A stretch of 64,000 nt of DNA from the NCBI RefSeq assembly GCF_018861145.1, contig NZ_JAHKQT010000001.1:37093-101092 (forward strand), read 5' to 3'. The notes below the pieces were generated by a model that made no database searches, was not told the origin of the DNA, and was given only the letters and a program-made list of their open reading frames with translations. This DNA is from Poseidonibacter lekithochrous. GTDB lineage: Bacteria; Campylobacterota; Campylobacteria; Campylobacterales; Arcobacteraceae. Made by a program: the position numbers and the translations under genes. Positions 4,785-60,304 of this stretch are shown one piece after another; the first letter of the stretch is position 1; each line of letters opens with the position of its first letter.

Positions 4785-5006
4785 CTATTTTTTATTTCTC
4801 TTTTTTGAAGCTTTTGCCATTTTAGCTTTTTTCTTAGCTTTTGCTTTTGCTAAAGCTACATTTGCACCTTTTCTAGCATTTATTACTTGTTCATCTGCTT
4901 TTTTATGGTCAAAACTTACAGGAATAGCATTTTTTATTTCCCTAGATTTTCTTGCGATTTTATCGCCTTCTGTTGTGTCTACACTTGAAGTATTTTTTCT
5001 TGACAT
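4785..5006 (-). CDS. Small lysine/alanine-rich basic protein
   Basis: A 73-residue protein with a strongly basic C-terminal tail made mostly of lysine and alanine (about residues 52-73), which resembles histone-H1-like or ribosome-associated tails. No family is recognised. The ATG follows AAGGTAAAAT, a usable ribosome site. It follows the SelW-like gene by 44 bases on the same strand and could share its transcript. Nucleic-acid binding is suggested only by the charge pattern. Confidence 0.6.
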   Translation of the reverse strand: MSRKNTSSVDTTEGDKIARKSREIKNAIPVSFDHKKADEQVINARKGANVALAKAKAKKKAKMAKASKKRNKK

Positions 5007-5050: not shown

Positions 5051-5278
5051 TTATAAAGACTTAATTCTAGTAGTAATTTCATTTTCTTTTGGAAATCTCT
5101 TATGAATCTCTAACTTATCGAAGATAATAAAGCCATCTACAATCACTTTAAAGATACCACCTGAACCTTTATTTAATTTTATCTTTACATTTGAAAAATT
5201 ACCTGTTAATTCATCTTCTAACCTAGAAGCTTCTGGTAAATAGTTTCATTCTCCGCAATAGTGTATTTCTATATTCAT
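5051..5278 (-). CDS. SelW-like (Rdx family) selenoprotein, UGA read as selenocysteine
   Basis: The frame opens with ATG at 5278 after AAGGATTTAAA, meets UGA at 5246-5248 as codon 11, and runs on to TAA at 5051-5053: 75 residues with selenocysteine. The N-terminus reads HYCGEU, the CxxU redox motif of the SelW/SelT/Rdx family. The continuation matches family features: YLPEASRLEDEL, then GSGGIFKVIVDG, then a C-terminal RFP. Both sides of the UGA match one small family, so a stop is unlikely. A hairpin sits at the position expected of a bacterial SECIS. SelA, SelB, SelD and tRNA-Sec are all in this window. The family is linked to thiol redox; the exact role here is unknown. Confidence 0.85.
5221..5248 (-). 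promoter_or_regulatory. Candidate bacterial SECIS element in the SelW-like gene
   Basis: Directly after the UGA, RNA nucleotides 12-28 (counted from its U) can pair as ACCAGA / UCU(A)GGU around an AGCU loop at nucleotides 18-21. This puts the apical loop in the usual window for SelB recognition. The stem is short and has one bulged A. Pairing was done by eye. Confidence 0.5.
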
Positions 5279-5340
5279 TTTAAATCCTTATATATTTACA
5301 TATAAATGATTATATAGTATTTATTTTTAGATAACAAGTT

Positions 5341-40343: not shown

Positions 40344-43175
40344 CTATGCTCTTGCTACCTGACATAATCCACCCTTAGTTTCAGGAATTTGAGTAACAAT
40401 GTCATAACCGTAGTTACTAACAGTATTTGCACTCTCACCTATTGCATAAGGAGCAGTTCCATCAGGATACTTATGTAGTAAACTCTCACCTTCCAATACA
40501 CCAGCAAAGTGGAAAGGAATAAATATTCTATCAGGTGTTACTGAATATGAATAATGTGCTTTTACTTTAATTTTAGTTCCTTGAGGTGAATGAATCCACA
40601 TCATTGAACCATCTCTAATTCCATGTTTACCAGCTAAATCTGGATTAATATCACAGAACATTTCTGGTGTTAATTTTGCTAAATACTTAGATGCTCTATT
40701 TTCCATACCAGCACCATTCATATTAACAAGTCTTCCTGTAACTAAGTTAATAGGGAAGTCTTTTGCCCAATCTTGTTTAGATTGTTCAGAAATATATCTC
40801 GTATCAACTCTCCAGTGATTTGGCTTATCAGCAAAACTTGGATAGTCTTTTGTTAAATCTGTTCGAGGTGTGTGTAATGGTTCCCTATGTTTAGGAATCT
40901 CATCTTCCCATCCCCATACTTTTGCTCTTGCTTTTGCATTTCCATAAGGAGCTATTCCAGCTTCCATACATTTTTCAGCAATAATATCAGATGTATCAAC
41001 TTTCCAGTTTTTACCAATTTTTGACTTTTCATCTTCTGTTAAAGTTATTCCTAAAACAGCTTCAATATTGTCTTTATTTATCTCAGGATATCCATCTTTG
41101 TTATTTGAACCTATTGGTGCACTACCTTTAGCAGCTAATAAATCTTCACCATCACGTTCCATACCAAATCTATTTCTGAATCCCATACCACCTTCTTTAA
41201 CAGGTCTATTAATGTTATATAACACTGGGCTTCCTGAATGAGATTCTGTCCAACAAGGCCATGGTAAACCATAGTACTCACCAGCCATTTCTCCATATCC
41301 TCTTAAAGATACTTCATCAAACATATGCCAGTTTTTCTGATGTTTCTTTAATCTTTCAGCTGTCCAACCTGTTAATCCAATAGTTTTGATGATTCTAGCC
41401 ATCTCATCTGTTGCATCTTCTGGCCAAGTGAAGTCTTTTTTATTTTCCTTCATTTTCATACCAGCTGTAAATTCATCATAAAAACCTAGTCTTTTTGCTA
41501 ATTCAAACATGATATCTTGATCTGTTTTACATTCATACATTGGCTCTACAACTTTCTCTCTCCATTGAGCAGATCTGTTTGTAGCCGTTACTGAACCACT
41601 AGTTTCAAACTGAGTAGTTGCTGGTAAAATATAAACATCATTTTGTTTATCAGTTAAAATAGCACCCTCATTAACAAATGGATCACAGAATACTGCAAGA
41701 TCTAAGTTATCTAAAGCTTCTTTTACTTTTTTAGTTTGAGCAGTTGATGTAATACCATTACCCATTACTAATAGAGCTTTTAATCTAGTCCCAGCATTGT
41801 GAATAGCATCTTCACCTGGATTTTCACCAAGTACTCCAGCCCACCATCTAGCTAATGTAAAACCTTTTTTACCCATCCATGATGGATCTTTAAATCTTCC
41901 TTGAAGCCAATCAAAATCAACTCCCCATGAAGAAGCAAAGTACTTCCAAGAACCTTCACTTAAACCATAATATCCAGGTAAAGAATCAGCTAAACAACCG
42001 AAATCTGTAGCACCTTGAACATTATCGTGACCTCTAAGAATATTAGTTCCACCACCTTCAACACCCATATTACCAAGTGCTAACTGTAAAATTGGAGCCA
42101 TTCTAGTATTAGATGTCCCATTTGAATGTTGCGTTAATCCCATAGCCCAAATTAATGTACCTGGTGTATTTTGTGCATAATGCTTAGTAATTTGTACAAT
42201 TAAATCAGCATCAACACCTGTTACATCTGCAACTCTTTCAATCGGCCAGTTCTTAGCCTCTTCCATAATATCTTTCATTCCGAAAACTCTATCATTGATA
42301 AAGTTTTTATCATGCCACCCATTTTCAAAAATGATTTTTAACATTCCATACATAAATGGAATATCAGTACCAGGTCTGATTTGTGCATAATAGTCTGCTT
42401 TTGCAGCAGTTTTAGTAAATCTAGGATCTACTACAATTATTTTAGTGTTATTTCTTTCTTTTGCTTTTAAGAAATGTTGGAACCCTACTGGATGATTTAC
42501 TGCTGGATTTGCTCCAAAAATAATTATCGCTTTAGAATTTTGTATATCTCCTAAAGAATTTGTCATAGCACCATAACCCCATGTGTTTGCCACCCCGGCA
42601 ACTGTTGAGCTATGTCAAATTCTAGCTTGGTGATCTATATTATTAGTTCCAAACATTGCAGCAAATTTTCTGTAATAATATGATTGCTCATTACTGAATT
42701 TTGCTGATCCTAAAAACATTGTTGAATCTGGACCATCTTTTTGTCTAAGGTCTTCAAGTTTAGAAGCAATACCGTCTAAGGCTTCATCCCAAGAAATTCT
42801 TTTCCATTGACCATCTTTTTTCACCATCGGATGTTTAAGACGTACTTCAGATCTAACCATATCAATCATATCAGCACCTTTACAACAGTGCCCTCCAAGT
42901 GATACAGGATGATCTTGAGCAACTTCTTGTCTTACCCACACACCATTTTGTACTTCTGCTATTACACCACAACCTACAGAACAAGCTGTACAAACAGTTT
43001 TAACTGTTTTTGAACCAGGGAATGGATTTTTAATCTCTTCCTCTGTAGCTTTTCTAGTTGCTTCTGTACTAGCAAAAGAAGATGTTACTCCAAATGCAGT
43101 AGCTACTGCAGCCATTTTCATAAATGACCGACGTCCAACTTTTGCATTTAGAGTTTCATATGTATTTGCTGACAT
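40344..43175 (-). CDS. fdhA: Formate dehydrogenase catalytic subunit, selenocysteine-containing
   Basis: One 943-residue protein read through UGA at 42615-42617 (Sec187); naive translation splits it in two. AAGGAGTAAT precedes the ATG. A Tat signal (GRRSFMKMA, residues 14-22) sends it to the periplasm. The [4Fe-4S] ligands are C62, C65, C69 and C97 (CTACSVGC...HCCKG). Sec lies in ARIUHSSTVAG, followed by the family motif NTWGYGAMTN. The C-terminal part is the molybdopterin-dinucleotide-binding domain. It oxidises formate to CO2, with molybdenum or tungsten bound by the Sec. A SECIS hairpin follows the UGA. Confidence 0.96.
42587..42617 (-). promoter_or_regulatory. Bacterial SECIS element of fdhA
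   Basis: After the UGA at 42617-42615, RNA nucleotides 17-31 form TTGCC / GGCAA around a GGGGT loop. The loop lies 22-26 nucleotides downstream of the U, the distance SelB needs, with G residues as in E. coli fdhF. Confidence 0.72.
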
Positions 43176-54584: not shown

Positions 54585-55622
54585 ATGAATAACGAATATA
54601 AATTAACTAAATTCGTTCAAGCAGCAGGGTGCGCAGCAAAGATGGGTCCGGGGGATCTAAAACAAACTCTTTGTAATTTGTCACCAAGCGATGATAGAAT
54701 TTTAGTAGGATTTGATACAGCAGAAGATGCTAGTGTATTTCAAATAAATGAAGAACAAGCTATTGTGCAAACATTAGATTTTATCACACCAGTTGTAGAT
54801 GATCCATATATCTATGGACAAATTGCAGCAGCAAATGCTTTATCAGATGTCTTTGCTATGGGCGCAGAGGTAAAAACTGCTTTAAACATAGTAGGATTTG
54901 ATAAAAAGAATTTACCATATGAAGCTTTAGCGGAAATTCTAAAAGGTGGAAATGAAAAAATTAAAGAGTGTGGTGGACTTTTATTAGGTGGTCATACTAT
55001 TGAATCACCTGAAATGTATTATGGCTTATCAGTTACAGGAATGATTCATCCAAATGAAGTTGTAAGAAATAACACATCAAAAGTTGGACATGTTTTAGTT
55101 TTAACAAAACCTCTTGGAATGGGTATTTTAACAACTGCAATCAAAAGAGATTTATTAGCACTTGATAGAATGAAATATTGTGCGAATATTATGGCTGAAT
55201 TAAACTATATTCCATCAAGAATTATGAAAAAATATGATGTGAGTTCTTGTACAGATATTACAGGATTTGGATTATTAGGACATAGTTTAGAATCAGTAAA
55301 TGAAAATACATCATTTGTAATTCACGCAAATGATGTACCTGTTGTAAAAGACGCGATACAATTAGCACTAGATAAAGTAGTTCCAGGCGGAACAAGAAAA
55401 AATATGAAATATCTTGAAGATAAAGTTTTATATATGGATGGCTTAGATCCTATAGTTAAAACACTATTATGTGATGCTCAAACATCTGGTGGATTATTAA
55501 TAGCAATGGATCCAAATGATGCTAAAGAATACATAAAAGAAATCCAAGATTTAAGTTTTGGATATGCTTCAATTATTGGAGAAGTTATTCCAAAAGGTGT
55601 AAAAGATATAATAGTACACTAA
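54585..55622 (+). CDS. selD: Selenophosphate synthase SelD
   Basis: A 345-residue enzyme that makes selenophosphate from selenide and ATP. The N-terminal glycine-rich loop AAGCAAKMGPGDL carries C16 (the equivalent of the essential E. coli C17) and K19; the second cysteine of the usual GCGCK is alanine. DFITPVVDDPYIYGQIAAAN and DVFAMGAEVKTALN are ATP/metal-site motifs, and TSCTDITGFGLLGH-type text (SSCTDITGFG) is conserved. GAGGTTAT precedes the ATG. It uses Cys, not Sec, at the active site. Confidence 0.95.
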   Translation: MNNEYKLTKFVQAAGCAAKMGPGDLKQTLCNLSPSDDRILVGFDTAEDASVFQINEEQAIVQTLDFITPVVDDPYIYGQIAAANALSDVFAMGAEVKTALNIVGFDKKNLPYEALAEILKGGNEKIKECGGLLLGGHTIESPEMYYGLSVTGMIHPNEVVRNNTSKVGHVLVLTKPLGMGILTTAIKRDLLALDRMKYCANIMAELNYIPSRIMKKYDVSSCTDITGFGLLGHSLESVNENTSFVIHANDVPVVKDAIQLALDKVVPGGTRKNMKYLEDKVLYMDGLDPIVKTLLCDAQTSGGLLIAMDPNDAKEYIKEIQDLSFGYASIIGEVIPKGVKDIIVH

Positions 55623-56975: not shown

Positions 56976-57075
56976 TGGCGAGAAGGTGTAGGAATCGAAC
57001 CTACCGCGGCGTACACACGTAAACCGCCGATCAGGGTTGAAACCTGCGGTGCCCACCAGGGTCACATACCCCCCA
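56976..57075 (-). tRNA. selC: Selenocysteine tRNA, anticodon UCA
   Basis: A roughly 100-base tRNA with UCA in the loop TTTCAAC flanked by CAGG/CCTG. Long variable arm CGGCG/CGCCG, a T-arm GTAGG-TTCGATT-CCTAC, an eight-base 3' acceptor ACCTTCTC, discriminator G and encoded CCA mark it as tRNA-Sec. The 5' acceptor strand is mostly G and pairs by three G-C, one U-A and three G-U pairs, leaving position 1 (U) unpaired. It lies antisense to the intergenic DNA between hxlR and selA. It decodes UGA in fdhA and the SelW-like gene. Confidence 0.85.
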
Positions 57076-57128: not shown

Positions 57129-58475
57129 ATGAGTTTATTAAAAAACATTCCCAAGATTGATAAGTTTATCAAACACAAAGAATTTGAGGGGTTTTCAACA
57201 TCTCTAATCACCCAAATATCAAAAGATATAATCACAAAACTAAGAGCTGATATTCTTAAAGAAAAGATTGATAGCATTAATGAAGTTGAATTAATACAAG
57301 CTGTCAAAAATGAGTATAAAAATTTAACTTCACCATCACTACAAAGTGTTATAAATGCTACAGGAATTATTGTCCATACCAATTTAGGACGCTCACTAAT
57401 AAATGAAGAAAGTTTTAACAAAGCAATGAAAGTAGCCACTTCTTATAATAACCTTGAGTATGATTTAGAACAAGGTAAAAGAGGTGAAAGGTATTCGCAT
57501 ATTGTAAAAACTCTACAAGCACTAACTGCTTGTGAAGATGCGATAGTTGTAAATAATAATGCAAGTGCAGTTTTTTTAATCCTTAATACTTTTTGTAAAA
57601 ACAAAGAAGCAGTTGTAAGTCGTGGTGAACTTGTAGAAATTGGTGGAAGTTTTAGAGTTCCTGAAGTAATGGCACAAAGTGGTGCGATACTTAAAGAAAT
57701 AGGAACTACAAACAAAACTCATCCAAGAGATTATCAAAATGCTGTAAATGAAAATACTGCAATGCTTATGAAAGTACATAAATCAAACTATACAATTGAA
57801 GGTTTTACTTCAGAAGTAGGATACGAAGAGATTGTGCAAATTGCAAAAGAAAAAGATGTGATTGATTACTATGATATGGGAAGTGGCCATATGATTGACT
57901 TACCATATAATTTAGACCAAGTGGAACCATCTATTTTAAAAATCATGCAATATAATCCAAGTTTATTGAGTTTTTCAGGAGATAAGCTTTTAGGTTCTGT
58001 TCAAGCTGGTGTTATTATTGGTAAAAAAGAGTTAATTGGAAAAATTAAAAAGAATCAACTCTTAAGAATGTTAAGAGTTGATAAAATTACCCTAGCCTTA
58101 CTTGAAGATAATCTAACTTCATATTTAGAAAATAAACTTGATGATATCCCTACATTAAAAATGTTACATACTTCAATTATAGAATTAGAAGAACGCGCAA
58201 ACTTACTAAAAGAATCAATTGAAGATTTATGTACTTGTGAAGTAATACAAACGCAAACTTTAATAGGTGGTGGGACTACTCCTAATAAAAAAATACCAAC
58301 TATTGCACTTAGTATTACTTACAAAGATTATAAAGCAAATAGAATTGAAAAACTTTTAAGACGTGAAAACTTAATTACAAGAATAGAAAATGAAAAAGTT
58401 CTAATTGATTTTAGAAGTATAAAAGAGAATCAAATATTACAAATTGCAAATATTATAAAAAAGGTGTTTAACTAA
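57129..58475 (+). CDS. selA: Selenocysteine synthase SelA
   Basis: A 448-residue PLP enzyme that converts seryl-tRNA-Sec to selenocysteyl-tRNA. NATGIIVHTNLGRSLI (residues 76-91) and the PLP lysine K286 in SGDKLLGSVQAGVIIG are typical; length matches bacterial decameric SelA. It overlaps selB by one base (TAATG) and they form one transcript. Confidence 0.96.
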   Translation: MSLLKNIPKIDKFIKHKEFEGFSTSLITQISKDIITKLRADILKEKIDSINEVELIQAVKNEYKNLTSPSLQSVINATGIIVHTNLGRSLINEESFNKAMKVATSYNNLEYDLEQGKRGERYSHIVKTLQALTACEDAIVVNNNASAVFLILNTFCKNKEAVVSRGELVEIGGSFRVPEVMAQSGAILKEIGTTNKTHPRDYQNAVNENTAMLMKVHKSNYTIEGFTSEVGYEEIVQIAKEKDVIDYYDMGSGHMIDLPYNLDQVEPSILKIMQYNPSLLSFSGDKLLGSVQAGVIIGKKELIGKIKKNQLLRMLRVDKITLALLEDNLTSYLENKLDDIPTLKMLHTSIIELEERANLLKESIEDLCTCEVIQTQTLIGGGTTPNKKIPTIALSITYKDYKANRIEKLLRRENLITRIENEKVLIDFRSIKENQILQIANIIKKVFN

Positions 58476-60304
58476 TGTCAAATATTATTATAGGAACAGC
58501 AGGACATATTGACCATGGTAAAACAGCTTTAATTAAAGCATTAAATGGTTATGAGGGTGATAGTACAAACGAAGAGAAACAAAGAGGTATTACTATTGAT
58601 TTATCTTTCTCAAATTTGAGTAAGGGTCAGCAAAATATCGCTTTTATTGATGTACCAGGACATGAAAAACTAGTTAAGAATATGATTGCTGGGGCTTTTG
58701 GTTTTGATTATGTAATGCTTGTTGTTTCTGCGGTTGAGGGTATTATGCCTCAAACAATTGAGCATATTGAGATTATTAATTTACTTGGAATTAAAGATAT
58801 TATTCTGACTATAACAAAAAGTGATTTAGTAACACCAGAAGAACTTGAAATACAAAAGAAAAAAACATTAGAGTTTTTGGGTACTTTTGATTTTAGTATT
58901 AAATTTGTTCAAGAAGTATCTATTTTTGATCCTAAATCTATTGAGGCTTTAAAAAACAATTTATTTACAATTAAAAACTCTTCAAAACAAGAAGAAAATT
59001 TCTTTAGATATTATGTTGATAGAGTATTTTCACCAAAAGGAATTGGAACAATTGTAACAGGAACAGTTCTTGGGAAAAAGCTTGAGTTAAATGAAAAAGT
59101 ATTTGTTTGTGAAGCAGGAAAAGAATCAGTAGTAAAAAATATTCAAGTACATAATGAAAATACAATAGAAGCAAATATTTCAAATAGAGCAGCTTTAAAT
59201 CTACAAGGAATAAACAGTACAAATATTAAAAGAGGTGATTTAATTACAAAGAAAGGCTTTATTAGAGGTTTTGATGAAATCGATATCTCTTTTAAAGCTC
59301 TAAAAGGTAAAAAACTACATCATAATAAAGCATATACAGTATTTATAGGAGCTAAGAAACTTGAAGCAAAAGTTTTATTATTTAACTCAACTGAAGAACT
59401 AGAATCTGGTTTTGCAACGATAAAAGCAAATGAAAAGCTATTTACTATTTTTGGTGAAAAACTTATTATTAGACAAGGGAATCAAACTATTTCGGGAGGA
59501 AAAGTTTTAAATCCAATAATTGACCCAATGAAGAAAAATCAAAAGAAAAAATTATTAGAATTTTTAAATGAAAATAATTTCGAAGAAGCTTATTATCAAT
59601 TACTTCAAGCACATAAAAAAGGGCTAGGAATAATCTCTTCAGCACAAAGATTTGCACTATCTCATGCCCAAGCTATATCTTTTGCAAGAAATTTAAAGAA
59701 TGTTTTTATTGATGAAAAAGAACTTATTATTTATCCCATAGCAACAAAAGATTTTATTATTAATTCTGTTAAAGATATTTATACAAAAAATACTTATGCC
59801 CTACTTTCAAATGCCTCTATTGGTTTACGATTAAAATGGGCAAGTACTTCTTTTATTCAAACAGCTTTAGATGAATTAGAGAAAGAAGGCTTTTTACAAA
59901 AAGATAACAACTTATATAAAAATGCAAATATAAAAGAAGACTTTGCAAAAAATCTTGAAGACTCATTCTTAGATAGACTAAAAAAAGAAGATATCACTCC
60001 AACAGCTCCTTACAATATCTATGATGAACTAGATTTAGATAGAAAACTTGGCGATGATATTTTAAAATCTTTAACAGCAAAGAAACAAGTTGTGAGGCTT
60101 CAACATAATCTTTTTATTCATGCAGAGAGTTTAAATAATATCATTACTAAAATGAAAGAAATCATAAAAGAAGAAGGATATATTGATATTATAAACTTTA
60201 AAGAAAAATATCCAATGAGCAGAAAATATTTAATTACATATCTAGATTATCTTGATAATTTTTCAAATATTAAAAAGCAAGAGAACAAAAGAGTTTTTGT
60301 TTGA
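58475..60304 (+). CDS. selB: Selenocysteine-specific elongation factor SelB
   Basis: A 609-residue GTPase. Walker-type G1 GHIDHGKTAL (residues 9-18), G3 DVPGHEKLVKNMIAGAFG and G4-like ITKSDL lead, then two beta-barrel domains and C-terminal winged helices that bind the SECIS hairpin (from about residue 360). It brings Sec-tRNA to UGA codons. The final 70 residues are KEKYPMSRKYLITYLDYLDN. Confidence 0.95.
   Translation: MSNIIIGTAGHIDHGKTALIKALNGYEGDSTNEEKQRGITIDLSFSNLSKGQQNIAFIDVPGHEKLVKNMIAGAFGFDYVMLVVSAVEGIMPQTIEHIEIINLLGIKDIILTITKSDLVTPEELEIQKKKTLEFLGTFDFSIKFVQEVSIFDPKSIEALKNNLFTIKNSSKQEENFFRYYVDRVFSPKGIGTIVTGTVLGKKLELNEKVFVCEAGKESVVKNIQVHNENTIEANISNRAALNLQGINSTNIKRGDLITKKGFIRGFDEIDISFKALKGKKLHHNKAYTVFIGAKKLEAKVLLFNSTEELESGFATIKANEKLFTIFGEKLIIRQGNQTISGGKVLNPIIDPMKKNQKKKLLEFLNENNFEEAYYQLLQAHKKGLGIISSAQRFALSHAQAISFARNLKNVFIDEKELIIYPIATKDFIINSVKDIYTKNTYALLSNASIGLRLKWASTSFIQTALDELEKEGFLQKDNNLYKNANIKEDFAKNLEDSFLDRLKKEDITPTAPYNIYDELDLDRKLGDDILKSLTAKKQVVRLQHNLFIHAESLNNIITKMKEIIKEEGYIDIINFKEKYPMSRKYLITYLDYLDNFSNIKKQENKRVFV

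Follow-up and report, generated by a model that had tools for sequence, protein, structure and literature searches.

Among the selenoproteins of Epsilonproteobacteria, SelW is already described: a 2015 survey of epsilonproteobacterial selenoproteomes lists it, and SelW genes especially were found to be wholly missed by annotation (PMC4607533). For C. jejuni SelW (CJnc60), Ribo-seq across the UGA and mass spectrometry revealed the full-length protein in 2025 (PMC11955535). The locus described here resembles this group (NF041051; PMC4607533; PMC11955535) in its length class (75–85 aa), in a CxxU motif at residues 8–11, in the register of the SECIS element, in the position of the Sec codon and in being missed by annotation. 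It lies in a window of 64,000 nt from the genome of Poseidonibacter lekithochrous, and all positions given below without a genome label refer to this window. We conclude that the minus-strand frame from 5278 to 5051 is almost certainly a real small gene, selW, in which an internal UGA encodes selenocysteine and which specifies a SelW redox protein. Insertion of Sec by SelB at a SECIS element within the coding region is the established bacterial route, and the SECIS of selW is likewise located inside the frame, whereas animal SECIS elements are found in the 3' UTR. Mammalian selenoprotein W has a CxxU motif and belongs to the same family; in sequence it is very distant from the product studied here (2npb, E = 1.5). 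The best PDB relatives are Cys-type bacterial Rdx structures of the same family (2fa8 Atu0228, 3dex SAV_2001 and 2p0g; E between 8.8e-8 and 1.8e-5), which are 105–107 aa long and in the best two of which a Cys is aligned with the Sec place.

The selW reading frame and its family

The frame consists of an ATG start, 75 codons with a single internal TGA and a TAA stop. The TGA is codon 11 (5248–5246, minus strand) and falls within a CGEU (CxxU) redox motif; reading through it yields the product MNIEIHYCGEUNYLPEASRLEDELTGNFSNVKIKLNKGSGGIFKVIVDGFIIFDKLEIHKRFPKENEITTRIKSL. In the default ORF list, made with the ordinary code, no ORF of at least 60 aa is present at this place. A preliminary description of the window had proposed that ORF callers miss a gene here because UGA is codon 11; its coordinates (5051–5278) proved to be exact, and the strand, which it did not give, is minus. 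By searching the window we found that in 4 of 2293 ATG frames a TGA occurs early and the frame then stays open to at least 75 codons, so that the openness of the frame alone is not decisive and homology decides. An AAGGA ribosome binding site, also proposed earlier, is located at 5289–5285, 6 bases upstream of the ATG, and AAGG-type sites occur upstream of most selW homologues as well. A possible sigma-70 promoter (TTGTTA-17-TATAAT, 10/12) at 5337–5309 on the same strand is only weakly indicated, as we found 6 promoter-like sites against 4.0 expected from shuffles. The gene order around selW is the same in the two nearest relatives. Immediately downstream, at 4785–5006 on the minus strand, we observed a gene for a 73-residue basic protein rich in Lys and Ala, which is kept in these two relatives and is without an NCBIfam match.

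The preliminary description had named a 75-residue Rdx-family protein with family-like sequence on both sides of the UGA and had suggested a search against SelW/Rdx proteins. This assignment held: the product matches Pfam Rdx (PF10262; SelT/SelW/SelH) with 65.8 bits (cut-off 22.6, E = 4.1e-18), and the match covers residues 2–73 and profile positions 1–73 of 74, thus spanning both sides of the TGA. TIGR02174 is matched with 54.5 bits (cut-off 34.2), and the CxxC or CxxU motif required of the Rdx family after the first strand is present as C8-G-E-U11. The gene is shorter than most epsilonproteobacterial selW genes and reaches 86.3 bits over positions 1–70 of 70 of NF041051 (SelTWH_Campy, the NCBIfam model for Campylobacterota), the cut-off of which is 88, a value reached by none of the 104 genomes of the family. 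Motif, SECIS and TGA are common to this gene and to the homologues that pass the cut-off. In the whole genome it is the only Rdx gene above the cut-off, with one TGA, the next place scoring 13.9 bits.

A covarying SECIS hairpin follows the UGA

The apical hairpin of the SECIS element (5229–5215, minus strand) is composed of CUUCU (5229–5225), the loop AGGUU (5224–5220) and AGAAG (5219–5215), and its stem begins 16 nt after the UGA. A SECIS-like hairpin had been noticed in the preliminary description, and it is backed by covariation though not by energy. As the folding energy of the hairpin alone is unremarkable (z = -0.5) and not significant, we used covariation to test the SECIS. Of the 44 distinct sequences compared, 43 have a stem of five pairs with a loop of five bases at a fixed distance 3' of the TGA, with stems as different as CUGCA-AGGGU-UGCAG, CUUCC-CGUGU-GGAAG, CUUCG-CGUGU-CGGAG and CUCUG-CGUGU-CAGAG, and CGGUC-AGUUU-GGCCG in a contig labelled Gammaproteobacteria. 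When all 44 are counted, pairing is seen in 99.5% of the cells, both sides have changed in four of the five pairs, and covariation scores 0.584, compared to 0.160 for shuffled sequences and at most 0.211 with the partner slid. The second base of the loop is G in all 44 sequences, which fits the invariant loop guanosine of epsilonproteobacterial SECIS elements (PMC4607533). From these data, the selW hairpin is a genuine bacterial SECIS. In the contig labelled Gammaproteobacteria, which is of metagenomic origin (L010, 2468–2698), the Sec-type SelW has its SECIS in the same codon register with an entirely different stem sequence and an additional outer G-C pair.

The loop sequence AGGUU contains an AGG Arg codon, in contrast to about half of the relatives, which use CGU. 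In 16 sampled genes of the window AGG makes up 3.7% of the Arg codons and AGA 82.7%. The rare AGG in the SECIS loop shows an RNA constraint that is visible in the codon choice.

Sec machinery and other selenoproteins

The complete Sec machinery that had been reported for the window could be located. The tRNA-Sec gene selC (anticodon TCA; ARAGORN, and Rfam RF01852 with 49 bits) lies at 56980–57074 on the minus strand, and three genes are found on the plus strand: selA at 57129–58475 (TIGR00474, 555.8 bits, cut-off 267.9), selB for the Sec-specific elongation factor at 58475–60304 (TIGR00475, 291.2 bits, cut-off 242.25) and selD at 54585–55622 (TIGR00476, 357.9 bits, cut-off 125). We looked for an in-frame stop in selD and found none, so that SelD is not a selenoprotein here. 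FdhA, which had been named as a selenoprotein, is one: the gene (40344–43175, minus strand) encodes a protein of 943 residues in which residue 187 is Sec (TGA 42617–42615), and it has a SECIS-like hairpin of its own, UUGCC-GGGGU-GGCAA. Outside the window, FdhA-like matches are free of internal stops, and DUF466, known as a further selenoprotein of Campylobacterales, is absent from the genome. The claim that SelW is a second selenoprotein besides FdhA holds for the window, and the genome was checked for Rdx, SelD, FdhA and DUF466.

In Sec genes generally, termination at the UGA competes with its decoding as Sec. It is conceivable on this ground that the UGA of selW is not decoded as Sec, being either read through by another tRNA or kept as a regulated stop, so that mainly a peptide of 10 residues is made. 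We regard this as very improbable, as tRNA-Sec, SelA, SelB and SelD are all present, the UGA occupies the CxxU place that forms the family's redox centre, and the SECIS agrees with the form known from Epsilonproteobacteria, including the invariant loop G (PMC4607533).

The UGA codon is kept across relatives

We compared selW places in the genus, the family and the order. In the genus, selW is found in 5 of 10 genomes, each time with one TGA. In the family, selW was found at 17 places, spread over 16 of 104 genomes, and each of them has one TGA; in an order sample of 399 genomes we found 84 places in 82 genomes of 14 genera, 83 of them with one in-frame TGA; among the distinct homologous stretches compared, the TGA is at this codon in 44 of 44. 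The preliminary description had stated that close relatives lacking one half of the gene, or showing frame decay on one side of the UGA, would speak against it; neither was seen in close relatives, and both halves around the UGA are present in all genus homologues. It had also suggested looking for Cys-for-Sec homologues in related genomes. No Cys form of selW was found in genus, family or order by the NF041051 search with a limit of E = 0.001, at which Cys-type Rdx proteins of greater distance might be missed. This absence agrees with Zhang et al. 2006, who described SelW-like selenoproteins with few or no Cys homologues in Sec users (PMC1794560). Searching plasmid records gave two distant matches only (34–37% identity).

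The gene is distributed less widely than selB. In the half of the genus genomes from which selW is missing selB is kept, and in the family selB occurs in 70 genomes compared to 16 with selW. Of the family genomes with at least 90% completeness and at most 5% contamination, all 13 with SelW contain selB, compared to 66 of 88 overall, and the probability of this co-occurrence by chance is 0.017 (hypergeometric). Three SelW genomes give no full match to selB; they are 74–86% complete, and in one of them selB is in two pieces.

Some genomes carry more than one copy. In G044 two selW-like genes are located 16 kb apart (L022, G044:C96:103766-103966; L017, G044:C96:119819-120037); the second has lost the first motif Cys and one residue (YSKU compared to YCGMU), but its UGA is retained and its SECIS, which includes a G-U pair, is intact. 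A tandem pair was found in L064 (G422:C1:1224400-1225400), with the UGA codons 414 bases apart and one more codon between UGA and SECIS stem in the first copy (19 nt compared to 16 nt).

The 84th place of the order sample (L063, G352:C1:252900-253500) is different: no stop appeared in its profile match, which begins only at position 10. By reading the DNA base by base we found a frameshift just upstream of the TGA, which is itself retained, and a SECIS stem with its outer pair broken. This is a decaying selW copy.

Selection on selW

We next compared dN and dS. Downstream of the UGA, dN is lower than dS in all genus pairs. The dN/dS of selW is 0.52 and 0.38, ratios that are rough since they rest on 74 codons only, while the same two comparisons give 0.05–0.17 for four flanking genes. 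Hardly any change is seen in the first 22 codons, where the motif and the greater part of the SECIS are located. With a dN/dS of 0.4–0.5 for selW compared to about 0.1 in the neighbours, constraint on the C-terminal part is modest. A C-terminal dN/dS near 0.5 could mean that SelW evolves fast in this lineage by adapting to lineage-specific partners, with redox loop and SECIS frozen, instead of being weakly constrained; we consider this unlikely.

The raised dN/dS, the absence of selW from half of the genus genomes and the true decay by frameshift of one order homologue could be taken to mean that the locus is a former Cys-type Rdx gene in which a TGA mutation arose and left a pseudogene, or that the TGA is a sequencing error. 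Against this stand a TGA that homologues from 14 genera share at one and the same codon, the failure to find any Cys form, the covarying SECIS and dN below dS past the TGA; universal TGA and covariation refute the idea, to which we give hardly any credence. A plus-strand reading of 5051–5278 was rejected because stops occur throughout.

Discussion

Taken together, our findings indicate, with a probability of roughly 0.96, that this Arcobacter-like bacterium (Campylobacterota) has a single-copy selW gene of the Rdx family whose product is a selenoprotein, Sec being inserted at UGA-11 via SECIS and SelB. We infer Sec insertion for the Poseidonibacter gene itself. The hairpin 16 nt past UGA-11 would be bound in the mRNA by SelB carrying Sec-tRNA-Sec, and this binding would lead the ribosome to insert selenocysteine at UGA-11 rather than to stop. 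The predicted product has a mass of about 8.5 kDa and a thioredoxin fold, and its active site is Cys-Gly-Glu-Sec. Judging from the CxxU motif and the fold family, it is likely a thiol/selenol oxidoreductase; we know of no physiological substrate of a bacterial SelW.

The mechanism is not new. What is added here is the covariation count for the SECIS, the rare AGG kept in its loop and a dN/dS above that of the neighbours. The gene is an ordinary SelW of a family already known, and the result corrects an annotation and is no discovery: selW at 5278–5051 is a gene that ORF callers lose. For the family, its presence in 16 of the 104 genomes, as opposed to 70 with selB, marks selW as dispensable in most niches.
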